From: Rudanella paleaurantiibacter
GTDB taxonomy: Bacteria > Bacteroidota > Bacteroidia > Cytophagales > Spirosomataceae
Assembly: GCF_009184635.1 (NCBI RefSeq)
Contig: NZ_WELI01000003.1
Coordinates: 372,001-436,000 of the forward strand
DNA: 64,000 nt
Direction of reading: 5' to 3'
The position numbers and the translations under genes were made by a program. Numbering within the stretch: position 1 is the stretch's first letter; each line of letters starts with the position of its first letter. Under the pieces are notes generated by a model. That model was not told the DNA's origin. It saw nothing but the letters and a program-made list of their open reading frames with translations, and searched no databases. Shown piece by piece: positions 6,681-45,859 of this stretch.

Positions 6681-9600
6681 ATGCGACTTTCTCTACCACA
6701 TCGGCCAGAAGCTCTGCGCCTACGCGTGCAACTTCACTCGCTAAAGTTGTTTTTTCTGGTGGTCGTGCTGCTGGCGAGCTTCGGGCAGGCTGTTCGTGCC
6801 CAAAGCCCACCCAGTTCGGTTACTGTATCGGGGGCTTGTCTTGCGCAAGCCGTTACATTAAATCTCAGCACAACCAATTTCGAGGGATCAAACCGGCCGT
6901 CCTATACAGCCACGAGTAGTGTCATTCTCAACGGGCAAACGTACGCAGGCGTTGAAATCAGTTTATCCTACCTGACCTCGGCGTCCGTCTGGGTCCTTAG
7001 TTTCGACGGTCAACCCTACCTGTCAAACACCTCAACGGGCAGCTTGCCTCCCACTACCGGCTGGTTAGCCGAAACATCAGGTGTAGTAGGACCCTGCACG
7101 GGCAATACGCCGTTGGTGGTACAACTACCAGCTACCCTGGCTACCGTGACTACCACCGCTCCAAGCGAAATACGACCCAACCGGGCCACTCTCGGCGGTA
7201 ATGTCACCAACGATGGCGGAGGTGCTATTACAGAGCGCGGAGTCGTTTACGTAGCTGGCACCGGTACGCCCACTACTGCCAACACGAAAGTAACAGGTGG
7301 AACTGGCACGGGCGCATTCTCAGTAACAGCCACCGGACTATCGGCCAATACCCTTTATACGGTACGCGCTTATGCTATTAATAGTGCTGGTCCAAGCTAC
7401 GGGTCATCGCTGACTTTCACAACGCCGGTAGCTTTGGCAGCTACCATTATTCAAACTACAAATGTCAGCTGTAACGGAGGGGCAAATGGATCTTTGGTGG
7501 CTTCAGTCAGTGGCGGAGTTGGCCCTTTCACATATAACTGGACACCCGGTAGCCCATCCGGCGACGGCACTACCACCATTACCGGCTTAGCCGCAGGCAG
7601 TTATACTATCACTGTGACCGACGGTCAGGGCACAACTGCTACAGCTGTAGGTACTGTCACGCAACCGCCTACGCTAGTCATCAATACCTTTTCGCAAACC
7701 AATGTTAGCTGCAACGGTGGCAGCAATGGCTCAGCTTCAGTAACGCCCTCAGGGGGCGTGGGTGGGTACACCTACAGTTGGGCTCCCTCGGGTGGCACAA
7801 ATGCTGCCGCTACGGGCCTTGCGGCAGGGAGCTACACTGTGACCGTTACCGATGCCAACGCGTGTACAACCACGCGCAGCTTCAACATCACGCAACCACC
7901 CGTACTGGCTATTAGCAATTTCTCCCAAACTAACGTCAGCTGCAATGGTAGCAATACCGGCACAGCTACGGTAACACCTTCAGGGGGTGCGGGCGGTTAC
8001 ACCTACAGCTGGGCTCCCTCGGGTGGCACAAATGCTACCGCTACGGGTCTGGTAGCCGGAACGTACACTGTAACGGTAACCGATGCCAACGCGTGTACAA
8101 CCACCCGAAGCTTTACCATTACGCAACCACCCGCACTGGCTGTCAGCAACTTCTCGCAAACTAACGTTAGCTGTAATGGCGGGTCAAACGGATCAGCTTC
8201 GGTAACACCTTCAGGGGGTGCGGGCGGTTACACCTACAGTTGGGCTCCTTCGGGCGGCACAAATGCTACCGCTACGGGTCTGGTAGCCGGAACGTACACT
8301 GTAACAATAACCGATGCCAACGCGTGTACAACCACCCGGAGTTTCACCATCACGCAACCCCCTGTGCTGGCATCAAGTGGCAACCAGACCAATGTTAGCT
8401 GCAACGGCGGCAGTAATGGATCAGCTACGGTAACGCCCTCAGGGGGCGCGGGCGGTTACACCTACAGCTGGGCACCATCGGGTGGCACAAATGCTACCGC
8501 TACGGGTCTGGTAGCCGGAACGTACACTGTAACGGTAACCGATGCCAACGCGTGTACAACCACGCGCAGCTTCACTATTACGCAACCGCCTACGCTAGTC
8601 ATCAATACCTATTCGCAAACCAACGTTAGCTGCAATGGTGGCGCTACGGGATCAGCTACGGTAACGCCTTCAGGGGGCACAGGTAGTTACACCTACAGTT
8701 GGGCACCATCGGGCGGTAATGGCGCAACCGCTACAGGCCTTGCGGCAGGTAGCTATACCGTGACCGTGACCGATGCCAACGGTTGTGTGGCTACGCGCAG
8801 CTTTACCATTACGCAACCACCTGCACTGACCGTAACAACCAGCCAAACCAATGTCAACTGCAATGGTGGTAATACAGGAGTAGCTTCAGTATCGGTATCA
8901 GGGGGCGCGGGCGGTTACACCTACAGTTGGGCACCTTCGGGTGGTAATGGCGCAACCGCTACAGGCCTCGCGGCAGGTAGCTATACCGTGACCATTACCG
9001 ATGCCAACGCCTGTGTTGCCACACAGACGTTTACCATTACCCAGCAGGCCGCTATTAGCATCACACCCAGCCAAACCAATGTTACCTGTAACGGCTTGAC
9101 CAATGGTACGGCGGCCGTATCGGTATCAGGTAACTCAGGCCCATACACCTACAGTTGGGCACCTTCGGGTGGTAATGGCGCAACCGCTACGGGCCTTGCG
9201 GCAGGTAGCTACACCGTGACCGTTACCGATGCCAACGGTTGTGTGGCTACGCAAACCTTCACCATTACCCAGCCCAACGCGCTGGTATTAGGCGGTAACC
9301 AGACCAATGTGAGCTGTAATGGCGGGGCCACGGGCTCGGCTACCGTGTCAGCATCAGGCAATCCGGGGCCTTATACCTATATGTGGGCACCATCAGGCGG
9401 CTCTGCTCCAACCGCTTCGGGCCTGACCGCCGGTATTTACAGCGTGACGGTTATCAGCGGCAATGGCTGCACGGCCACCCGGAGTTTCACCATCACGCAG
9501 CCCCCGCTATTGGCAGCCACTACGAGCCAGACAGACGTTAGTTGCAATGGCGGGTCAACCGGGTCAGCCTCGGTAACGCCTTCAGGGGGTGTGGGTGGTT

Positions 9601-12236
9601 ACACCTATCTGTGGAGTCCGTCGGGCGGCACAGCGGCTACCGCTACCGGATTGACCGCCGGTAATTACAGCGTACTCGTTACTGATGCTAACGGCTGCAC
9701 GCTGACCCGAAACTTCACCATCAGCCAGCCCCCGGTGCTGAGCGTTGGGGTGAGCCAGACAAACGTTTCGACGTTTGCGGCTACCGATGGACGCGCTTCG
9801 GTTTCGGTATCGGGCGGAGCGGGTAGTCCATACATGTACGACTGGACACCCGGCAACCCAACCGGCGATGGTACCAACACTATTTCGGGTTTAGCGGCTG
9901 GTCTGTACAATGTGCTCATTACGGACCCTAACGGTTGTACAATCTCACAGAGCGTTACGATCACCCAACCCGGTCAGCTCACTACGCCAGCACCAGTCGT
10001 GTCGGCTCCGGCCAACGGGGCCCTGATCAACACGTCTACGCCTGCCATTGCAGGAACAGCCGCTGCTAACAGTACCGTCACGGTTATTGTGGATGGCAGC
10101 ACGGCAGGTACCACAACCGCCAATGGTGCAGGCAACTGGACGTTCACGCTCTCGGTGCCGCTTTCTCAGGGGTCGCATACCGTTCGGGCGAGGGCGCAAC
10201 TGACCAATCAGATTCAGAGCGTCGACAGCAATACAAATACGTTCACGGTCGACTCGAATCAGCCCACGGTGACCGTCAGCACGATAGCCACCAATCCAAC
10301 CCAAGTATCGCCCATTCCAGTAACCATCTCCTTTAATGAATCGGTTACGGGGCTTACGCTGGCCGAAATCAGCGTAACCAACGGCACCGCGTCGACCCTG
10401 ACCGGTAGTGGCAGTACCTATACGGTGAGCATCGTTCCGGCGGGTACCGGGCTGGTTACGGTCAGTCTGGCCCCCGGTGTGGCTCAGGACAATGCCGGTA
10501 ACCAAAACCTGGCCTCGAACCTACTCAGCATCCAATACAATGCACCCAACGGTGCACCTACAGTGGCCAATGCGATTCCTCCGCAGTCGGCTACAGTAGG
10601 TCAGGCGTTCACGTTTACGATACCGGCCAACACATTTACCGACGTCGAAACGCCGAACAGCCTCACCCTGTCGGTGGCGGGTCTGCCCCCGAACCTCACG
10701 TTCAGCGGCAACACCATCAGCGGTCTGGTATCAACATCGGGTACCAGCACCGTGACGGTGACGGCCACCGACCCCGGCGGGTTATCGGTCAACACTACCT
10801 TTATCATCACCACAGCCAGTCAGCCTTTTGGCGGCACCGTGGTGAGCTACAACTGCCAAACCGGGGCAATTGTACTCGGCTCAGTAGGTAGCACGGGCGG
10901 AGTGATCGAGTATTTCGCGATTGGTGTAACAGGCTGGACTACCAACCCGAACCAGCTCATCGAGGCCGGTTTGCGCGCCGACCCGAAACCGATCACGATT
11001 CAGGTGCGGCAAAACGGCGTAGAAGGTCTGCCGTTTATCTTCAACTTTGGGCAGTTCTGCGGTAACAATACCCCGCCCCTACTGGTCAACGCGGTACCCC
11101 CACAATCGGCTACGGTTGGGGTCCCCTACACCCTGAATCTGGGTACTGTTTTCACCGACGCCCAGACTCCGGGCCAGATAACCCTGTCGGGCTCGGGCGT
11201 ACCAGCTGGTCTGAACCTGATCGGTACGTTTATCACCGGTACACCGTCAGCGTCGGGTGTGAGCACCATTACGCTCACCGCCACCGATCCGGGCGGCCTC
11301 AGCAGCAGCACCAGCTTTGTGCTGACGGTGAGCCCTGTGGGTAGCCAGACAAGTACCCCACCACCTACAGGCGGGCTGTTGTCAGCCACTGTGGTGAGCT
11401 ACAACTGTAGCACGGGAGCCATTGTCTTCGGTTCAACGGGTGGTAACGGATCGGCCGTAGAGTACCTTTCCATTGGCATCACGGGCTGGACCACCAACAC
11501 AAATCACGTGATTGAAGCCGGTCTGCGCGCCGATCCGAAGCCGATTACGGTACAAATTCGGCAGAATGGCGTGTTGGGTCAGGCGTTTGTGTTCGACTTT
11601 GCCGCCTTCTGCACGGGAGCGCCCCAGCCCCCTGCAAGCACTACCAGTTGCGGCAGCCCAACGGCTACCCTGGGCAGCGCCTTGCAGGTAACGGGTGTAA
11701 CCGAAGTCAACTGCCAGACGGGCTCATTCCGGATTCTGACGAGCGGTGGCAACGGTTCGCCCATCAGCTACGCCAATCTGGTAGGTTTGAGCAATGCCGA
11801 CCCCAACAACTGTCTGCGGGTACTCGACAACCCCGACCTGATTCGGGCCGTGAACAACCCGGCTTCTGACATTGGTCCGCTCAACCTGCGGGTTACCCAA
11901 AACGGCGTTACGAGCAATACGTTTAGCTTTAACTTCAAGCAGTTTTGTACAGGTACCGCCCGGATTGCGCGGGCCGAAGACGCTCCGCTGGAAGTAACGG
12001 TACTGGGCAACCCCACCACTGCCGAGTGGGTAGCCGTGCGGATAGCCGGTGCCGGTAGCGAAGCCCTCTCGCTGGAAGTAGCTGATGCACAAGGCCATTT
12101 GGTGAGCCAGCAGCAGGCAACAGCCAGCCAGGGCGAAGCCACTACGCGGGTGCGGGTTGGTGCGTCGGCGGGTATGTACGTACTCCGGGTGAGCACACCA
12201 ACACGGACCCAGACGGTGAAGATCGTCCGTCAGTAA
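6681..12236 (+). CDS. Giant SprB-repeat adhesin with type IX secretion C-terminal domain
   Basis: Start at 6681, which places the signal peptide (hydrophobic run ending VRAQ near residue 41) at the N-terminus; an upstream in-frame ATG at 6570 would add 37 unlikely residues. Domains in order: unknown head; fibronectin-III-like (about 150-250); about 11 SprB repeats of some 70 residues (about 254-1097), each with QTNVSCNGG and ITQPP landmarks; two Ig-like domains; putative-Ig/cadherin-like domains alternating with three copies of a module reading VSYNC...RQNGV...FC; and a type A sorting domain in the last 85 residues. The product should leave through type IX secretion and be anchored or released at the cell surface, as SprB-type proteins are in gliding and adhesion. 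The last SprB repeat has lost the conserved Cys (NVSTFAATDG). Confidence 0.93.
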   Translation: MRLSLPHRPEALRLRVQLHSLKLFFLVVVLLASFGQAVRAQSPPSSVTVSGACLAQAVTLNLSTTNFEGSNRPSYTATSSVILNGQTYAGVEISLSYLTSASVWVLSFDGQPYLSNTSTGSLPPTTGWLAETSGVVGPCTGNTPLVVQLPATLATVTTTAPSEIRPNRATLGGNVTNDGGGAITERGVVYVAGTGTPTTANTKVTGGTGTGAFSVTATGLSANTLYTVRAYAINSAGPSYGSSLTFTTPVALAATIIQTTNVSCNGGANGSLVASVSGGVGPFTYNWTPGSPSGDGTTTITGLAAGSYTITVTDGQGTTATAVGTVTQPPTLVINTFSQTNVSCNGGSNGSASVTPSGGVGGYTYSWAPSGGTNAAATGLAAGSYTVTVTDANACTTTRSFNITQPPVLAISNFSQTNVSCNGSNTGTATVTPSGGAGGYTYSWAPSGGTNATATGLVAGTYTVTVTDANACTTTRSFTITQPPALAVSNFSQTNVSCNGGSNGSASVTPSGGAGGYTYSWAPSGGTNATATGLVAGTYTVTITDANACTTTRSFTITQPPVLASSGNQTNVSCNGGSNGSATVTPSGGAGGYTYSWAPSGGTNATATGLVAGTYTVTVTDANACTTTRSFTITQPPTLVINTYSQTNVSCNGGATGSATVTPSGGTGSYTYSWAPSGGNGATATGLAAGSYTVTVTDANGCVATRSFTITQPPALTVTTSQTNVNCNGGNTGVASVSVSGGAGGYTYSWAPSGGNGATATGLAAGSYTVTITDANACVATQTFTITQQAAISITPSQTNVTCNGLTNGTAAVSVSGNSGPYTYSWAPSGGNGATATGLAAGSYTVTVTDANGCVATQTFTITQPNALVLGGNQTNVSCNGGATGSATVSASGNPGPYTYMWAPSGGSAPTASGLTAGIYSVTVISGNGCTATRSFTITQPPLLAATTSQTDVSCNGGSTGSASVTPSGGVGGYTYLWSPSGGTAATATGLTAGNYSVLVTDANGCTLTRNFTISQPPVLSVGVSQTNVSTFAATDGRASVSVSGGAGSPYMYDWTPGNPTGDGTNTISGLAAGLYNVLITDPNGCTISQSVTITQPGQLTTPAPVVSAPANGALINTSTPAIAGTAAANSTVTVIVDGSTAGTTTANGAGNWTFTLSVPLSQGSHTVRARAQLTNQIQSVDSNTNTFTVDSNQPTVTVSTIATNPTQVSPIPVTISFNESVTGLTLAEISVTNGTASTLTGSGSTYTVSIVPAGTGLVTVSLAPGVAQDNAGNQNLASNLLSIQYNAPNGAPTVANAIPPQSATVGQAFTFTIPANTFTDVETPNSLTLSVAGLPPNLTFSGNTISGLVSTSGTSTVTVTATDPGGLSVNTTFIITTASQPFGGTVVSYNCQTGAIVLGSVGSTGGVIEYFAIGVTGWTTNPNQLIEAGLRADPKPITIQVRQNGVEGLPFIFNFGQFCGNNTPPLLVNAVPPQSATVGVPYTLNLGTVFTDAQTPGQITLSGSGVPAGLNLIGTFITGTPSASGVSTITLTATDPGGLSSSTSFVLTVSPVGSQTSTPPPTGGLLSATVVSYNCSTGAIVFGSTGGNGSAVEYLSIGITGWTTNTNHVIEAGLRADPKPITVQIRQNGVLGQAFVFDFAAFCTGAPQPPASTTSCGSPTATLGSALQVTGVTEVNCQTGSFRILTSGGNGSPISYANLVGLSNADPNNCLRVLDNPDLIRAVNNPASDIGPLNLRVTQNGVTSNTFSFNFKQFCTGTARIARAEDAPLEVTVLGNPTTAEWVAVRIAGAGSEALSLEVADAQGHLVSQQQATASQGEATTRVRVGASAGMYVLRVSTPTRTQTVKIVRQ

Positions 12237-33960: not shown

Positions 33961-34758
33961 TTACATATTTCCAATCTCAAACACCCGTTTGAGCGAATTC
34001 CAGAGCTGCCGCTTTAGGTTCTGGTCAGCTTCGATAACCGGCAGTGAGTCGGCCATGAGGAACGTGATGCCGTCGAAGCGGATCGGCTGGTAGCGATCCA
34101 TCATAATATCCAGATTGATGCGCTTGAAGGGTACGCCAAACGTGATAAAATGATGAATGTACTTGTGCCGCAGCACCTCGGCAAAGTTCACGTCGGCTAC
34201 ACCATACACGTTCAACAAATCGACACCGTTCACATCCAGATTAACTGCTTTCAGAATCTTTTCCAGAAACAGCAAGTCGCTGGGGGCCAAATCTTCGTCG
34301 GCCAGAATAAGTACTTTATGCTTGAGCAACTCCGGTTTCCGACCCTCGGCAGGCCAGGCGGGTGGGCGGGTATCCTGCACAGGTTCGGCCGCCGTCACCG
34401 ACGTAGTGAGCGGAGGAGTCACCGGCACCTGAACGTCGTCCGGCATAACAATCGGCACCGTTGGGGCAGGTTCCACGTCAACCACAGTGGCTGTTGTAAT
34501 CAGCTCAACCGGGCTTTCTTCATGGGCAATACGCTGATCGTCAATTATCGGTGTCGCAACGATTGTCGGAGCCACAGCTTGCTTCTCCAGCACCACGAGT
34601 TGCGGGTCCTGCACGGGCGGGATAGCCGGTACGGGTGGCACCACAGCAGGTTCGCTAATGGCAGGCACCACCCCTCCCCAATCGGCGACTGTCTCGGTCG
34701 GAACCCGAAACAGGTGTTCGGTCTGGTAAAGCGTTTGGTAAAGTACTTTGGTCGACAT
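33961..34758 (-). CDS. Unknown protein with Pro/Val-rich linker
   Basis: 265 residues. The N-terminal 20 residues (VLYQTLYQTEHLFRVPTE) look structured. Residues of about 30-150 are a Pro/Val/Ala-rich, low-complexity linker. The C-terminal domain (about 155-265) begins HKVLILADEDLAPSDLLFLEKIL and contains LLNVYGVADVNFAEVLRHKY and HHFITFGVPF. It has the look of an alpha/beta domain without recognisable catalytic residues. No signal peptide. It may tether a binding domain through a flexible arm. I do not recognise the family. Confidence 0.7.
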   Translation of the reverse strand: MSTKVLYQTLYQTEHLFRVPTETVADWGGVVPAISEPAVVPPVPAIPPVQDPQLVVLEKQAVAPTIVATPIIDDQRIAHEESPVELITTATVVDVEPAPTVPIVMPDDVQVPVTPPLTTSVTAAEPVQDTRPPAWPAEGRKPELLKHKVLILADEDLAPSDLLFLEKILKAVNLDVNGVDLLNVYGVADVNFAEVLRHKYIHHFITFGVPFKRINLDIMMDRYQPIRFDGITFLMADSLPVIEADQNLKRQLWNSLKRVFEIGNM

Positions 34759-36531: not shown

Positions 36532-36632
36532 CAGAAAAAGGGTTGGTCCACGGACGGCCACTGCGGATTAATAGGAACAAACCAGTATGTTTGCTCAACC
36601 GTATCCCAACCTGTTCAACTTCAATCCGTAAC

Positions 36633-38960
36633 ATGTCAAGTTCATTCAGCGCAAGCATAAATCAAGTAGATACGCTGCTCAATGCATCGTTGAATGGCAC
36701 CATTGTGTACAAAACTGTATACAACGAATCGGGCCAAATCAGTGACTTTACGTTAATCGCCCTGAACGAACAGGCGCGCATCGACTTCAACCGACCCACC
36801 GAAGAGCTGCTGAATCAATCGCTGCTGGAACTGTTGAAACACGACCCCAGCCTGTACTTATTCCGGCAATGCGCCCTGGCGGTAGAGAGTGGCCGCGCGG
36901 TTCAGTACGACACCGACTCCCGGCGCAGCCTCGACAATGCTCTGCATTCGTACACCGTCCGGATTACGCCAATTGATGGGGGCGTGGTTGCCAACTACAT
37001 CGACATTACCCTGTCGAAACAACGCGACCTGCTCGAGAAACAGCAGAACGAGATGCTGGACCGGATGATTAAGACAGCTCCGAGTGCCATTGCCCTACAC
37101 CGAACTATATTTAACGATACGGGCGAAATTATCGACTTTCAGCTGATCAGAGCCAACCAGCTAGCCTTCAACTGGATGAACGTTTCGGAAGAAGACGCCT
37201 ACCAGAAGCCCCTGTCGGCCATTTTTCAGAACTTCCGCGAGACAGCCATTTTCCGGCACTACACCCGGGTAGCCCAAACCGGTGAACCCGCCCGCTTCGA
37301 GCGACATATTGGCACCAACTGGTACGAGTTTTTTGTGTCCCAGTTCGACAATAGCATCATTGTGACCGTCAACGAAGCCACCAAACGCAAACAGACCGAA
37401 CTGGCGCTCAAACAGCAAACCGAAACACTGGAGGGAATTCTCGACGCGATTCCGGCGGGTGTGTTTGTATCGGAGGCTATTCGCAACGGGGCGGGTCAAA
37501 TCGTGGATTTCAAGATTGTTGAGGCCAACGCGGTGGCTTTGCTCACCAGCCGCCGACAACGGTCGGCAACGATTGGGCAACTGGCTTCGGTCATTTTTCC
37601 CCAGCAACAGTACGAAACGCTGTTTCCTCGCTACGAATCGGTGGTGGAGACTAAACAAATCCAACGGTTTGAGTACAGCATTTTGATTGAGGGCGCCCGA
37701 AAATGGGTCGATACGCAACTCTCCTACCTGGGCAACGACCGGGTTATTTCGTCGTTCAGTGACATTACCCCGATCCGGGAGGCCGAGTTTGCCACGCAAA
37801 AGCAAAGCGAGCTGCTGCGAAAGGTGATCGATAATGTACAGGTGGGCATCGGGCTGATTGAGGCCGTTCGGAATGAACAGCAGGCCATTATCGACTTTCA
37901 CTGGGTCATGTCCAACGAAGCTATTTCCCAGATTGCCCAACTCCCTACCGAAAGCGAATCGGACAACCGGATTCGGGCCGAAGACTGCCCCGACTCGCCC
38001 GAACTGATCGACGTGTTTAAGCAGGTCATTGCTACCGGCGAACCATTTCAGAAAGAGTTGAATGGGAATCAGGGGCCTGCCGATGGCTGGTTCGACACCC
38101 GCATTGTGAAACAGGGCGACGGCGTTTTGATTGCCGTGTCGGACATAACCAAACGTAAACTGGCTGAGCTGGAACTGGAACGCCAGAATCATTTCTTACA
38201 GCGCGCCAACCTCGACCTGATGCGATCAAACGAGAACCTACAACAGTTTGCCTACGTGGCCTCGCACGATTTGCAGGAACCCCTACGCAAAATCATTGCC
38301 TTCGGCGATATGCTGAGCGAAACCTACGGCCGTACGCTCACTCCCGAGGCCAATGACATGATTACGCGTATGCAAACGGCCGCCCGTCGGATGTCGCTGC
38401 TGATCCGGGATCTGCTCACGTACTCCCGCATCAGTGTGCATCCCGAAAAGCGCAGTACAGCCTCGCTCAATCAACTGGCGACCGAAGCGGTTGATAATCT
38501 GTACGTACCAATTGAAGAAAGCGGGGCTCAGATTCAGCTCGAACCGCTGCCCGACATTCCCGGCGACCCGGTTCAGTTAGAGCAATTATTTCAAAATTTG
38601 CTCTCCAATGCCATCAAATTTGGGCGTTCGGGCGTTAAACCTGTAGTGCGGGTATTTGGCGAAACTAAACCCTGGCACGAGCTGGCCCCGAATGTGCAGG
38701 CCAAGGTGCACAACCCGACCAAAGGCCCCATGGCGGTTATCCATATTCAGGACAACGGTATCGGGTTCGACGAACAGTACACCGACCGGGTCTTTCAGGT
38801 GTTTCAGCGACTGCATAGTCCGGCTCAGTTTGCGGGTTCGGGAATCGGGCTGGCTATTTGTCGGCGCGTGGCCGAAAACCACGGCGGAACCATCACCGCC
38901 CAAAGTCGGTTGGGCGAGGGGGCCACGTTTACGGTTTATCTGCCCATTCAACCGGCTTAG
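36633..38960 (+). CDS. Multi-PAS sensor histidine kinase
   Basis: 775 residues from the ATG at 36633, with no transmembrane segment that I can see, so likely a cytoplasmic sensor. About four PAS-like domains fill the first 520 residues (repeats of the type YNESGQISDFTLIALNEQA, FNDTGEIIDFQLIRANQLA, RNGAGQIVDFKIVEANAVA and EQQAIIDFHWVMSNEAI). The phosphoacceptor His lies near residue 544 in VASHDLQEPLRK, and the ATPase domain contains LFQNLLSNAIKF and GIGLAICRRVAENHGG. No response regulator is adjacent, so it is an orphan kinase. A similar kinase lies at 44297. Confidence 0.92.
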   Translation: MSSSFSASINQVDTLLNASLNGTIVYKTVYNESGQISDFTLIALNEQARIDFNRPTEELLNQSLLELLKHDPSLYLFRQCALAVESGRAVQYDTDSRRSLDNALHSYTVRITPIDGGVVANYIDITLSKQRDLLEKQQNEMLDRMIKTAPSAIALHRTIFNDTGEIIDFQLIRANQLAFNWMNVSEEDAYQKPLSAIFQNFRETAIFRHYTRVAQTGEPARFERHIGTNWYEFFVSQFDNSIIVTVNEATKRKQTELALKQQTETLEGILDAIPAGVFVSEAIRNGAGQIVDFKIVEANAVALLTSRRQRSATIGQLASVIFPQQQYETLFPRYESVVETKQIQRFEYSILIEGARKWVDTQLSYLGNDRVISSFSDITPIREAEFATQKQSELLRKVIDNVQVGIGLIEAVRNEQQAIIDFHWVMSNEAISQIAQLPTESESDNRIRAEDCPDSPELIDVFKQVIATGEPFQKELNGNQGPADGWFDTRIVKQGDGVLIAVSDITKRKLAELELERQNHFLQRANLDLMRSNENLQQFAYVASHDLQEPLRKIIAFGDMLSETYGRTLTPEANDMITRMQTAARRMSLLIRDLLTYSRISVHPEKRSTASLNQLATEAVDNLYVPIEESGAQIQLEPLPDIPGDPVQLEQLFQNLLSNAIKFGRSGVKPVVRVFGETKPWHELAPNVQAKVHNPTKGPMAVIHIQDNGIGFDEQYTDRVFQVFQRLHSPAQFAGSGIGLAICRRVAENHGGTITAQSRLGEGATFTVYLPIQPA

Positions 38961-39096: not shown

Positions 39097-40161
39097 ATGA
39101 CATTTTTTGAACGCCTTTTCCGGTTTGGTCGGTCCACCCCCGTACCCGAAGCACCACCCGCCCCGGAGGCAGGTCAGGCATCGGTTCCGATGGTAGCCCC
39201 GCCTACCCCGTTGCCCCCGGTGGCTGCGCTTCCGGTTGTGCCGCAGGCGGCCCCCGACTGGCTAACCGACGAACGGCTTCTGCGCGACGAAGGGGTTATT
39301 TTTGGGTTGTCGGAGGCCCGGCCCGAAGAAAAAACGGCCGTCATCCGAACGTTCTTTGCCCATCAGACGGCCGGTCTCGAACGGCAAATTGAGCAGTACA
39401 ACGAAAAAATCGGGGAGCTAAACCTGTTTATCGGTCAGCGCGAAAACAGCCTGGCCGAACTGGAACACCGACACACCACACTACTTAATCAACCACCGGC
39501 CAACCATCAGTTGCCGCGTACGGTAGTGGGTTTATTGCTGGCCTGCGCCATGTGCGTAGGCAACTACTTTTTGATCGAAACGGCTCTGCAACCCGCTTAC
39601 CCAACCCACACCACGTTTATAGCGGGGGGTGTTTTTCTGGCCGGTATGTTTGGCCTGTTCAGCCGGACATCGCTGTTTCACGACCCCGATAGCCGCCTGT
39701 CGGTTCGGCGAGTGCTCGAAGAGATTGCCCTGCCGGTGGTATCAGCCGGTTTTGTGTGGATGATGGCGCTACAGAGTCAGTCGGCCCCGATGGCCGCAGC
39801 CCTTGGCCTGTTTGTGCTGGGGCTATTTCTGTTTGGTGGAAAGCTCCTGCTGGGTTTGCTGACCGTGCTACGCGATGACCTCAGGGCGTACTCTGCCAAC
39901 CGGCAACTTCTCCAGGATCAACGCGCCTTCACCGCCCGCTACGAAACCGAAACCAAAGCGTTGCGGCACGAAATGGATCAGTTGCGGGCGCAGAAATGGC
40001 AAATTTTACCCGACCTGACCCGCACAGAAGCCGAGCGCGACCGGCTCAATGCCCGGCGCGATATGCTGGTGCGGCTGTTCGAGAGCGAATTTAACCTGGC
40101 CCGGTCGGTGAAAGATCGGCTGAGCGACGCACAACGCCGAGCTATTCTGGGCGAATCGTAA
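39097..40161 (+). CDS. Coiled-coil protein with four central membrane segments, first of a pair
   Basis: 354 residues. A Pro/Ala-rich N-terminus (residues 12-55) leads to a coiled coil (about 85-130), four hydrophobic segments (about 141-162, 173-190, 209-227, 231-257) and a second coiled coil (262-345) rich in Arg and Glu. No enzyme motif is seen. The same plan (coiled coil, four helices, coiled coil) recurs in the next gene, so the two probably act together, for example as a membrane-embedded scaffold. I do not recognise the family. Confidence 0.8.
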   Translation: MTFFERLFRFGRSTPVPEAPPAPEAGQASVPMVAPPTPLPPVAALPVVPQAAPDWLTDERLLRDEGVIFGLSEARPEEKTAVIRTFFAHQTAGLERQIEQYNEKIGELNLFIGQRENSLAELEHRHTTLLNQPPANHQLPRTVVGLLLACAMCVGNYFLIETALQPAYPTHTTFIAGGVFLAGMFGLFSRTSLFHDPDSRLSVRRVLEEIALPVVSAGFVWMMALQSQSAPMAAALGLFVLGLFLFGGKLLLGLLTVLRDDLRAYSANRQLLQDQRAFTARYETETKALRHEMDQLRAQKWQILPDLTRTEAERDRLNARRDMLVRLFESEFNLARSVKDRLSDAQRRAILGES

Positions 40162-40424
40162 AAAGGTTTTTTGGTTTAGGGTTTTTAGTTGGAAGCTGAC
40201 TGGTCGGAACGATAAAATCTATTGGTTGTCTGACATTTTTTGTAGAGACTCGGCATCCTGTGTAGCTCTGACCTTTGCGGCCCTCCGGCCAGAGCTACAC
40301 GACTTCCACATAATTTGACAAACAGCCAAACTATTGAACAAAAACCCGAACGCCGACCACTAAAAACCAGAAACCGGAACGCCGGCCGCTAAAAACCATA
40401 AACTAATAGAAAGAAACCCTACGC
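40162..40424. repeat. Repeat-rich spacer with inverted-repeat element
   Basis: 263 bases between the two coiled-coil membrane genes. GTGTAGCTCTG (40260-40270) pairs with CAGAGCTACAC (40290-40300), and outer segments TTGGTTGTCTGACA (about 40222) and TGACAAACAGCCAA (about 40316) pair imperfectly, suggesting a MITE-like unit of about 110 bases. Short repeats of ACTAAAAACCA and GCTAAAAACCATAA with a spacer CCGGAACGCCG lie at 40360-40403 and have an inverted partner near 40170 (GGTTTAGGGTTTTTAGT). Confidence 0.6.
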
Positions 40425-41780
40425 ATGGAACCAACGAACCAACCCGACTTTCAGCATGGCTACAGCAGTGGCGTTGAGGGCGTCACGCCCGACGCGTACG
40501 AGGGCTATTTGTCAAGTCAGGTCAATCTGGATTGGCTCAACGAACGCATCGCCGAGAAGCGCGCTACCATTGAGCAGATTCAGGGTCAGTTGGGCGAAGC
40601 AACCGTTGCCCGCAAAACGGCCTTTGCCCAGTTGCAGGAACACCTGCTACAGGTCAGCGTAGCCGCTAAGCGGGTAGAGGGGTTCCAAGCCGAACAGGAT
40701 GCACTACTGACCGAACGAACGGAGCTGCAACAACGCCGGGCCAAACATACGCCCGAATACTCGTTGCTGGCGGGTTTGCTGTTTCTGGTTGCCGGGGTTT
40801 CGTTTCTGGCCGGCGACCTGATTATCTCGCACGAGATTGTGGCCTACGCCCTCAATATTCGTAACACCACCGAGGCCTGGGCCTTTGCTGTGGGGTTGGC
40901 TATGGTATCCATCCTGCTTAAACCAGCTTACGACCGGCTGGTGGAGCAACCCTATCAGCGCGACCCGGTCGCGCACGGACGCCGATACGGCCGGTTCAAG
41001 ATCGGGTTGGCCGTGTTCGCTATGCTGACGCTGGCCGTTCTGGGGTGGTTCCGTTACGAAGCCTACCGCACCGATCAGCTCAAATCAGCCATTAACAAAT
41101 CGATCCGGCAAATGCAGCAAAGCAGCCTTTCGGCCGATGGCGATGGCACCGTTGCGGCCGACCCAGCCTTGCTCGCCCGGATTGAGAAACAACTTCAGCA
41201 GTCGAGCGAGCTGAATTTGACGCTGGTAAACAGCCCGTGGGCTTTGCTTTCGTTTGTCCTGAGCGGACTCTTGTTTGCGTTGGCCGGAGCCGTCTGTCTG
41301 GGAATCGGGCTACCCGTACTGTCAGACTTTTGGTTTCGCTGGCTACAGGCCGACTGGCGGCTGCGCCGAATTCGGAAGCGGTTGCGCCGGGTACAACAGG
41401 AACTCGAACCCGCCGAATCGACATTGGCGGGGCACCTCACGCGCAAGGCAGTACTGGAACACGAACTGGCCCTCACCCCCGACCCGGCCGAGCTTACGGC
41501 CCGGCAGCAGGCTCTGCACGTAGAGATTGACGATATGCTGGCCGAGTGCCGACTGGCGCAGACCGACAGCCGAATTGCCAATTTCACCGATGGTTTCCAG
41601 AAGGGTGCCGTAGCCCGCCGAACCTTGAGTGAGGGCGAGCAACAGCAGGTAAAAACAAACTATTTGAGCAATCAGGCCAACGCCAAAGCCCCGCGCCCTA
41701 CCCTGCCCACGGCCGCTCCGCGCCCCCACGAGGCCTTGCGGAATTTGATTGCCGGGGAGTTGGATAGACGCGAAGAGTAG
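40425..41780 (+). CDS. Coiled-coil protein with four central membrane segments, second of a pair
   Basis: 451 residues. N-terminal coiled coil (about 36-105, NERIAEKRATIEQIQGQLGE), then hydrophobic segments at about 112-134, 151-167, 191-210 and 271-300, with a soluble loop of about 60 residues before the last, and a second coiled coil at about 315-360 continuing into a charged C-terminus. The plan is the same as that of the gene upstream although sequence similarity is low. No catalytic or transport motif is seen. It converges with chrA (52 bases). Confidence 0.8.
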   Translation: MEPTNQPDFQHGYSSGVEGVTPDAYEGYLSSQVNLDWLNERIAEKRATIEQIQGQLGEATVARKTAFAQLQEHLLQVSVAAKRVEGFQAEQDALLTERTELQQRRAKHTPEYSLLAGLLFLVAGVSFLAGDLIISHEIVAYALNIRNTTEAWAFAVGLAMVSILLKPAYDRLVEQPYQRDPVAHGRRYGRFKIGLAVFAMLTLAVLGWFRYEAYRTDQLKSAINKSIRQMQQSSLSADGDGTVAADPALLARIEKQLQQSSELNLTLVNSPWALLSFVLSGLLFALAGAVCLGIGLPVLSDFWFRWLQADWRLRRIRKRLRRVQQELEPAESTLAGHLTRKAVLEHELALTPDPAELTARQQALHVEIDDMLAECRLAQTDSRIANFTDGFQKGAVARRTLSEGEQQQVKTNYLSNQANAKAPRPTLPTAAPRPHEALRNLIAGELDRREE

Positions 41781-44296: not shown

Positions 44297-45859
44297 ATGA
44301 ACAACCACTCGACACGAGCCGACATAACCCCCCATTCGCTTTGGCAGAAAGCCCTGGACAAGGTTCCGAACGGTCTGCTTGTGTACGAAATTGTGAAACA
44401 GGGAGGTGCCGCTACCCGGCTTCTGATCCAACTAGCTAACCAGCAGGCCGAACGCTTATTTGGCCTTTCAAAAGAAGAAATGACCGGGCGGTTTGCGCAC
44501 GACCTTTTTCCTGATGCTGGTAATTTCCCCCTTTGGTCCGACATTGAGCGGGCCATTCGCACCGGGCAGCCCACCCGCCGTGAAGTCTTCTCGTCGATAA
44601 GCCGGTCGGGTATAGCTGCCTGGTTCGACGTAGGCATTGAGCCCCTCGACGACAATCGGTGCGCGGTGGTTTCGTTTCACGACATTACTGAGTGGAAACA
44701 AACCCAACAAAGCCTTCTCAGCGACTCTATCCTGTTTCAGGCGCTCTCCTCTACTGTGCCCGAAATGGGGGTTGTTGCGATTGATTTCTTCCGCAAAATT
44801 GCCCTTGCCAACGGTCAGTTACCGGGCTTGTTTATCAGCAATATGGCCGACGATCTGGTGGGTCGCCGGTTTCTCGACGCCATTGAAACCAAATACGGGA
44901 TCGACTGGCAGCGGTATATCAGCACGGCTTTCGATGGGGAGCAACACTACTTTACCGACCACTGGAACAACTTGCGGTGTGAGATATACGTCGGGCCGGT
45001 ACGCAATCCGAGCGGGCAGGTGGTGATGGTTCTGGCGGTTTTCAAAAACGTATCGGAGCAGTATGCCCAACAGCAAGCGTTGCAGCAGGCCAACGTGTCG
45101 TTGCACCGGTCCAACGAAAGCCTCGAACGGTTTGCCTACGTGGCCTCGCACGATTTGCAGGAGCCTTTGCGCAAGATTCGGGCCTTCGGCGATATGCTCA
45201 ATGTCCGGTATGCCCCCTCACTCGATGAAGGTGGCCGCGATATGATTGCCCGGATGCAGTCGGCGGCTATCCGGATGGACGAGCTGATTCGGTCATTGCT
45301 CAGTTTCTCCCGCATCAACACACCCCTGCTTACCTTCTATCCGGTCAACTTAGGCGATTTGCTGCGGGGAGTACAAGGCGACCTGGAGCTGGTGATTGGG
45401 GAAAAAGGCGCCAAGGTGGAGGTTTTGTCGCCGATGCCGGTGGTCGCTGGCGACGAAACCCAGCTGCGCCAGTTGTTTCAGAACCTGATGACCAATGCGC
45501 TCAAGTTTGTAGCGCCGGGGGTGGCTCCCCGTGTTACGATTACAGCCCGTATCCTCCCGAAAGAGGAGCTTCCGTATAAGCCCGATCCCAACCTCGCCTA
45601 TCAGCTACAATACGCCGAGATAAGCGTTGCCGACAACGGCATCGGCATCGATCAGGACAATTTTCAGAAAATCTTCGGGCTGTTTACCCGCCTGCATGGG
45701 CGCTCTACGTACGCAGGTACGGGTATCGGCCTGGCTACGACTAAGCGCGTAGCCGAAAACCACGGCGGTACCATTACCGTTTCGAGTGAAGTAGGCAAGG
45801 GGACCGTTTTCAACGTGTACCTGCCGGTTGCACCCGACCCGGCATCGCTTACTTTTTAG
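44297..45859 (+). CDS. PAS sensor histidine kinase
   Basis: 520 residues, no membrane segment. Two PAS-like domains (about 15-130 and 150-260) precede a HisKA domain with the phosphoacceptor His near residue 284 (VASHDLQEPLRK) and a HATPase domain (LFQNLMTNALKF, GIGLATTKRVAENHGG). The kinase core closely resembles that at 36633, so they are paralogues or belong to one subfamily (phytochrome-like HisKA). No response regulator is adjacent. Divergent from the oxygenase gene. Confidence 0.92.
   Translation: MNNHSTRADITPHSLWQKALDKVPNGLLVYEIVKQGGAATRLLIQLANQQAERLFGLSKEEMTGRFAHDLFPDAGNFPLWSDIERAIRTGQPTRREVFSSISRSGIAAWFDVGIEPLDDNRCAVVSFHDITEWKQTQQSLLSDSILFQALSSTVPEMGVVAIDFFRKIALANGQLPGLFISNMADDLVGRRFLDAIETKYGIDWQRYISTAFDGEQHYFTDHWNNLRCEIYVGPVRNPSGQVVMVLAVFKNVSEQYAQQQALQQANVSLHRSNESLERFAYVASHDLQEPLRKIRAFGDMLNVRYAPSLDEGGRDMIARMQSAAIRMDELIRSLLSFSRINTPLLTFYPVNLGDLLRGVQGDLELVIGEKGAKVEVLSPMPVVAGDETQLRQLFQNLMTNALKFVAPGVAPRVTITARILPKEELPYKPDPNLAYQLQYAEISVADNGIGIDQDNFQKIFGLFTRLHGRSTYAGTGIGLATTKRVAENHGGTITVSSEVGKGTVFNVYLPVAPDPASLTF

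Follow-up and report, generated by a model that had tools for sequence, protein, structure and literature searches.

A candidate cell-envelope complex built from two membrane proteins with long helical arms, A and B, and a MIDAS-like lipoprotein, V

Introduction

What is made by two neighbouring genes of Rudanella paleaurantiibacter whose products follow one plan, a long helix, four TM segments and another long helix, and have little sequence identity? The genes, called A and B here, lie in a window of 64,000 nucleotides (the whole stretch of DNA analysed; contig NZ_WELI01000003.1, positions 372,001 to 436,000), for which a sequence-only reading had proposed that the pair may form a membrane complex with an undescribed role, such as mechanosensing or envelope organisation. 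A membrane complex is still the best reading, but the A-B pair is not its core unit, because in two families B is kept together with a third gene, V, and no A was found, which is either absent there or too diverged. The lipoprotein product of V had been missed. The comparisons below indicate that A, B and V are probably subunits of one cell-envelope complex, with V encoded elsewhere in the window's genome.

Results

A and B share a plan and show no detectable homology

Hydropathy and AlphaFold2 models confirmed two open reading frames with the common plan of helix, four TM segments and helix (Table 1). The low identity noted earlier was borne out as well, since profile-profile comparison with hhalign gave a probability of 2.6%, no detectable homology, and the two proteins were rejected as paralogs. 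In both A and B, positively charged residues precede TM1, lie between TM2 and TM3 and follow TM4, and the TM1-TM2 loop has few charges of any kind. These patterns around the TM segments place both termini of both proteins inside (N-in/C-in). Family-averaged hydropathy placed the TM segments of B at about residues 116-134, 151-169, 191-209 and 274-292, and gave a weak signal for the second TM segment of A. Almost nothing of A is left outside, its outside-facing loops being about 10 and 6 residues, whereas B exposes a TM3-TM4 loop of about 60 residues.

Table 1. Positions of genes A and B and of their conserved features in the window
Feature	Position	Strand	Description
ORF A	39097..40161	+	354 aa; N-terminal motif, helix, four TM, helix; usual partner of B
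A N-terminal cytoplasmic motif, residues 53-72	39253..39312	+	P.WL.DE..LRDEGV.FGLS
A N-terminal long helix, residues 76-131	39322..39489	+	AlphaFold2; periodicity in 27/52 homologs
A four TM segments, about 142-160, 170-188, 206-224, 234-252	39520..39852	+	Family-averaged hydropathy
A C-terminal long helix, 258-341	39868..40119	+	Conserved F.SEf.LAR motif (328-336) at end
ORF B	40425..41780	+	451 aa; N-terminal motif, helix, four TM, helix, C-terminal motif; core protein, co-occurs with V
B N-terminal motif, residues 8-31	40446..40517	+	D.qHGY.sG...; homolog conservation
B N-terminal long helix, 28-107	40506..40745	+	AlphaFold2
B TM1, short outer loop, TM2	40770..40931	+	GDLIISHEIVAYALNIRN..EAWAFA.GLAM...LLKPAYDRL; conservation; proposed (inferred) docking face for V
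B TM3 (191-209), TM4 (274-292) and, between them, a loop of about 60 residues predicted outside (210-273)	40995..41300	+	Hydropathy, loop charges
B C-terminal long helix, 303-400	41331..41624	+	G390 and G394 near end
B C-terminal motif, 433-439	41721..41741	+	RP....R; found in Rhodothermota homologs too

The AlphaFold2 models of A (mean pLDDT 87.9) and B (mean pLDDT 78.1) have long helices on either side of the membrane region, at residues 76-131 and 230-341 in A, and at 28-107 and 271-350/354-400 in B. When compared with the dynein stalk (5ayh), the flanking helices superposed with an rmsd of 3.1 over 128 residues for A and 2.7 over 130 for B, and because these structural matches span both arms, the models suggest that the flanking helices of each protein form an antiparallel hairpin. 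All PDB structure matches of A and B were to generic long helices (SMC arms, chemoreceptors, toxin shafts and the dynein stalk), with Z below 12, and are uninformative as to function. The sequence-only reading had described these helices as coiled coils; heptad periodicity in the window's own copies was not significant (p 0.09-0.30). Across homologs it was clearer, being present for the two arms in 27 and 28 of 52 homologs of A, and in 16 and 7 of 39 homologs of B, where 5% is expected. Since periodicity is weak in the own copies and partial in the homologs, 'long helical hairpin' is a safer label than 'canonical coiled coil'.

Within B, conservation is highest in TM1, the short outer loop and TM2 (56 homologs), where D131, S135, E150, W152 and K166, together with R171 and E174 just past TM2, are kept in at least 95% of homologs, as are G12 and G16 of the N-terminal motif. 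The arms also carry conserved peptides at their distal ends, which are LLRDEGV and F.SE..LA for A, and HGY..G, G...G and RP....R for B; in the N-terminal motif of A, residues L62, R63, D64, E65, V67 and G70 are invariant over a range from Spirosomataceae to Rhodothermus. The arm-end motifs probably dock a cytoplasmic partner.

At three loci of Fibrella-like species (L134, L140, L058), A is shortened to 226-243 aa and has two TM segments; two TM segments have been lost, and both helical arms and their end motifs have been kept. The two-TM form speaks against a role for A as a four-helix pore or sensor, and because A persists in this form, it argues for A as a tethered helical arm and not a pore.

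Searches for known relatives gave little. With Pfam and NCBIfam, no model reached the cut-off for the window's A or B, and no transporter or channel family was matched, so that one of the two results named as refuting the sequence-only reading did not arise. Homologs of B returned only scattered matches of coiled-coil type, and phages gave no match to B. In PADLOC, the arms of A and B weakly matched the coils of LmuB, JetC, PbeC and DndD, V had no match, and no known anti-phage system was identified. A literature search yielded no description of the trio. Of the families, defence models, solved structures and papers found here, none describes A-B-V.

The A-B pair is conserved and its surroundings vary

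A and B are strongly conserved families, and among 39 relatives homologs without an internal stop were found for A in 22 and for B in 23. In the species loci fetched with B (80, nearly all Spirosomataceae), A was adjacent to B, upstream on the same strand, in 75, so that the proposed co-occurrence survey revealed a co-conserved pair, and the second refuting result, a lack of co-conservation, did not arise either. The two genes were within 171 bp of each other in 71 loci, with a median gap of 56 bp; in the window the gap is 263 bp (40162-40424) and contains short imperfect repeats (aaccggaacgccggccgctaaaaacc-like). Weak matches to A in two further genomes (G145, G400) covered the C-terminal helix only, with B and V absent, and were taken as chance. 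Two loci titled Flavobacterium sp. SUN052 (L062) and Cellulophaga sp. BC115SP (L125) hold Spirosomataceae-like copies, that of L062 with 71% identity to the window's B, and these names may be wrong.

Genes named by reading the sequences around A-B include a sulfite-oxidase-like gene, purA, aspS and an amino-acid permease, and because these surroundings vary, no metabolic pathway is implied. For a 265-aa protein encoded at 33961-34758 on the reverse strand of the window, 57 of the 80 species loci have a homolog no more than four genes upstream of B, and the block that contains its gene is inverted in Rudanella; its weak Pfam match, to the DNA polymerase III psi subunit (E 0.022), is below cut-off.

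The orphan multi-PAS kinase that had been noted upstream is present, with four PAS matches, HisKA and HATPase_c, and with no adjacent response regulator. Its link to A-B did not hold up, since only 2 of the 80 species loci, both Rudanella-like, have a kinase of that cluster at most four genes upstream of B. A dedicated two-component system of the kinase with A-B was rejected because the linkage is not conserved, and the kinase is regarded as a local neighbour. Two related PAS histidine kinases (36543-38960 and 44297-45859, both on the forward strand) flank a region with A-B, a chromate transporter and an oxygenase, and neither has an adjacent response regulator.

A third gene, V, accompanies B

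A search of the phylum found distant A-B homologs in Rhodothermus-like genomes and in two others (G133, G345), where a third gene, V, then follows. The window's genome encodes V on another contig (G000 C23, about 626,101-626,925; 9102-9926 of locus L198), as a single profile match of 274 aa. A gene for a 328-aa protein (L198 9923-10909, reverse strand) overlaps the start of this V gene, and in several neighbourhoods from Spirosomataceae a homolog is the next gene upstream of V.

V tracks B more tightly than A does. Among the 39 relatives, 22 had V profile matches, namely the genomes with A and B except one that is incomplete (G003), plus G022, in which V is present, B is truncated and A is absent. 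Across the phylum, B and V were found in the same 9 of 395 genomes, and within the order in the same 30 of 194, all 30 V genomes carrying B. The order sample gave two other matches to B: one is weak and probably a spurious coil match (G491), and the other belongs to a diverged A-B-V operon (G521), in which V was seen beside A and B, outside the 30. Fisher tests of co-occurrence, in which relatedness is ignored, gave p values of 2e-18 for the phylum and 7e-36 for the order. The same pattern of presence recurs in eight families (f1, f5, f9, f71, f75, and f27, f45 and f49 of Rhodothermota), and within families B and V are also absent together, from G011, G014, G023 and G604 of f1 and from G028 of f5.

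Gene order differs between lineages. A-B is the order in Spirosomataceae, where V is not near the pair and V neighbourhoods have no fourth gene common to all. B-V is the order in two other families (f5 and f75), with V directly after B in nearly every case; A was not found there, being absent or too diverged to find. A-B-V is the order in Rhodothermus, in further Rhodothermota and in two Cytophagales, as seen in G345, G133, G450 and G521.

V is a lipoprotein with a MIDAS-like pattern

An invariant lipobox cysteine, Cys34, follows a hydrophobic stretch in 18 V sequences, which identifies V as a lipoprotein. Also invariant in these are D54, S58, T161 and S186-D187, in the MIDAS-like pattern DxSxS...T...SD. 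A VWA profile was assembled from loci of seven carrier genomes, and hhalign aligned V to it with a probability of 40.6% (E 3e-4) and with the MIDAS residues in register; when the V alignment was less clean, the match was lost. Of 17 control families, the best gave a probability of 2.0% (E 0.024) against the VWA profile, and unrelated control families reached E values as low as 0.0086 against V. No Pfam VWA model was reached by V, with one member at E 0.056, and a PDB profile search with V gave no match. Resting on motif order and one modest profile match, the assignment of V as a VWA domain with a MIDAS is probable.

Discussion

A complex of A, B and V is supported because B and V have an identical distribution, because the gene orders recur, and because the topology signals agree; the retention of both arms in the two-TM form of A also favours it. 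Within such a complex, B would be the inner-membrane core, with B and V together as the core of the assembly and A as the usual partner. The N- and C-terminal helices of B would fold back together as a cytoplasmic hairpin roughly 10 nm long, and A would add an accessory second hairpin beside it. V, lipid-anchored outside the inner membrane, may dock through a divalent metal (MIDAS) on the outer face of B, with D131 and E150 as candidate ligands; both residues are invariant, and so offer no covariation in support of docking. In this arrangement the complex would couple an outside binding event to the cytoplasmic hairpins, as an envelope scaffold or sensor and not as a transporter. We infer the physical assembly from distribution, gene order and topology; the specific docking of V on B and the role as scaffold or sensor are more tentative, possible sooner than probable.

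The invariant charged residues that B has within its TM segments or at their ends (D131, E150, K166, R171, R210) would also suit an ion channel or transporter, with a pore in B lined by these residues and with V, the lipid-anchored MIDAS-like protein that co-occurs with B, as an auxiliary outer subunit comparable to alpha2-delta. However, A and B match no channel or transporter family above cut-off, PDB comparison found generic long helices only, most of both proteins is cytoplasmic helix, and A tolerates the loss of two TM segments, and we consider a channel or transporter rather unlikely. It could be argued instead that A and B are co-transcribed and function separately, and that V co-occurs through shared ancestry only, since most matches come from one family, in which vertical inheritance alone would hold the genes together and V is unlinked. 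Agreement of B and V in presence and absence, across eight families and within families, and their appearance as B-V or A-B-V neighbours in several separate lineages make this highly improbable.

Two further explanations would attach the trio to a larger system. On two Rhodothermus marinus plasmids (DSM 4252 and SG0.5JP17-172), A-B-V, annotated 'hypothetical protein', sits within a type III-A CRISPR locus. It is flanked there by csm1/ring nuclease on one side and csx2/csm6/cas6 on the other, and only 3 bp separate V from csx2. In another genome (G345), Cas10 (PADLOC 7.5e-56) and RAMP-like genes come after the trio. The corresponding loci fetched here are L224 (NC_013502.1), on an R. marinus plasmid, and L169, in another Rhodothermota genome, where the trio stands before Cas10. 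A published survey describes vWA-related and transmembrane genes near CRISPR loci (PMC10910872). As a defence module, the trio might serve type III CRISPR systems as an ancillary membrane effector that nucleotide second messengers switch on, and might later have been kept by chromosomes without CRISPR. We consider this unlikely: the window's genome has no match to Cas10, which occurs in only 6 of the 39 relatives and does not track A-B-V; in G096, which shares its genus with the Rhodothermus genomes, and in G133, no CRISPR gene was seen near the trio; in Spirosomataceae the trio is present in most genera and syntenic, unlike mobile defence genes; and V is a lipoprotein outside the cytoplasm. 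With no Cas10 match, dependence of A-B-V on CRISPR is rejected for the window's lineage, and CRISPR is not the general role. Recruitment of an existing A-B-V into CRISPR loci would seem likelier than an origin there. The trio could otherwise belong, as a part specific to its lineage, to a larger known envelope machine with its other parts elsewhere, such as the type VI secretion membrane complex, which in Bacteroidota includes a multi-TM TssN and a lipoprotein, TssR, with a vWA-like domain (PMC10781749). However, A, B and V had no Pfam match to T6SS membrane components, whose models are assumed to be in the library, TssN differs in plan with five TM helices and a globular domain, and neither the surroundings of A-B nor those of V contained recognised secretion genes, which leaves this reading quite improbable.

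The envelope complex of A, B and V is thus the reading we prefer. In its fullest form it would be a new envelope machine, in which a MIDAS lipoprotein outside binds B, the cytoplasmic hairpin of B relays the signal or force from outside to its tip, where a partner docks, and A adds a second hairpin. Cytophagales would use this machine in ordinary growth, and in Rhodothermota type III CRISPR loci would have borrowed it; taken as a whole, that picture is speculative and somewhat doubtful. On the preferred reading, three conserved 'hypothetical' families can be tested as a single unit. They occur in most genera of a large environmental family and more sporadically in its relatives; cultured Spirosoma and Dyadobacter have them, as do plasmids of Rhodothermus marinus. 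Should the assembly prove real, a VWA-lipoprotein envelope complex would join the few that have been described in Bacteroidota, and the question would arise of why type III CRISPR loci recruited A-B-V.

Partial likenesses to known systems can be drawn. In voltage-gated calcium channels, a multi-TM protein has a short acidic outer loop on which alpha2-delta, a lipid-anchored MIDAS/VWA protein, docks from outside the membrane. The proposed contact between V and B would resemble this docking by analogy, although alpha2-delta is eukaryotic and without homology, and B does not belong to the known channels. In the gliding machinery of Myxococcus, CglB is reportedly a VWA surface adhesin at focal adhesions, and it would be like A-B-V in being a VWA envelope protein with an inner-membrane platform and cytoplasmic proteins; many carriers of A-B-V are regarded as non-motile. 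Among CRISPR-linked vWA and transmembrane genes, the Rhodothermus trio lies in a locus of the kind surveyed and is not identifiable in the accessible part of that survey (PMC10910872), and most carriers of A-B-V tested have no Cas10. The Bacteroidota-restricted TssNQOPR resembles A-B-V in combining one or more multi-TM inner-membrane proteins with a signal-peptidase-II lipoprotein that has a vWA-like domain, but its TssR is about 790 aa with three domains, its TssN has the five-helix plan given above, and it is found only in T6SS loci (PMC10781749), whereas no recognised T6SS genes lie alongside A-B-V. Membership of A-B-V in the TssNQOPR complex of T6SSiii was rejected, there being no Pfam match and no T6SS genes nearby. 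By resemblance only, A-B-V may be grouped loosely with the T6SS membrane complex and with CglB-type adhesion complexes.
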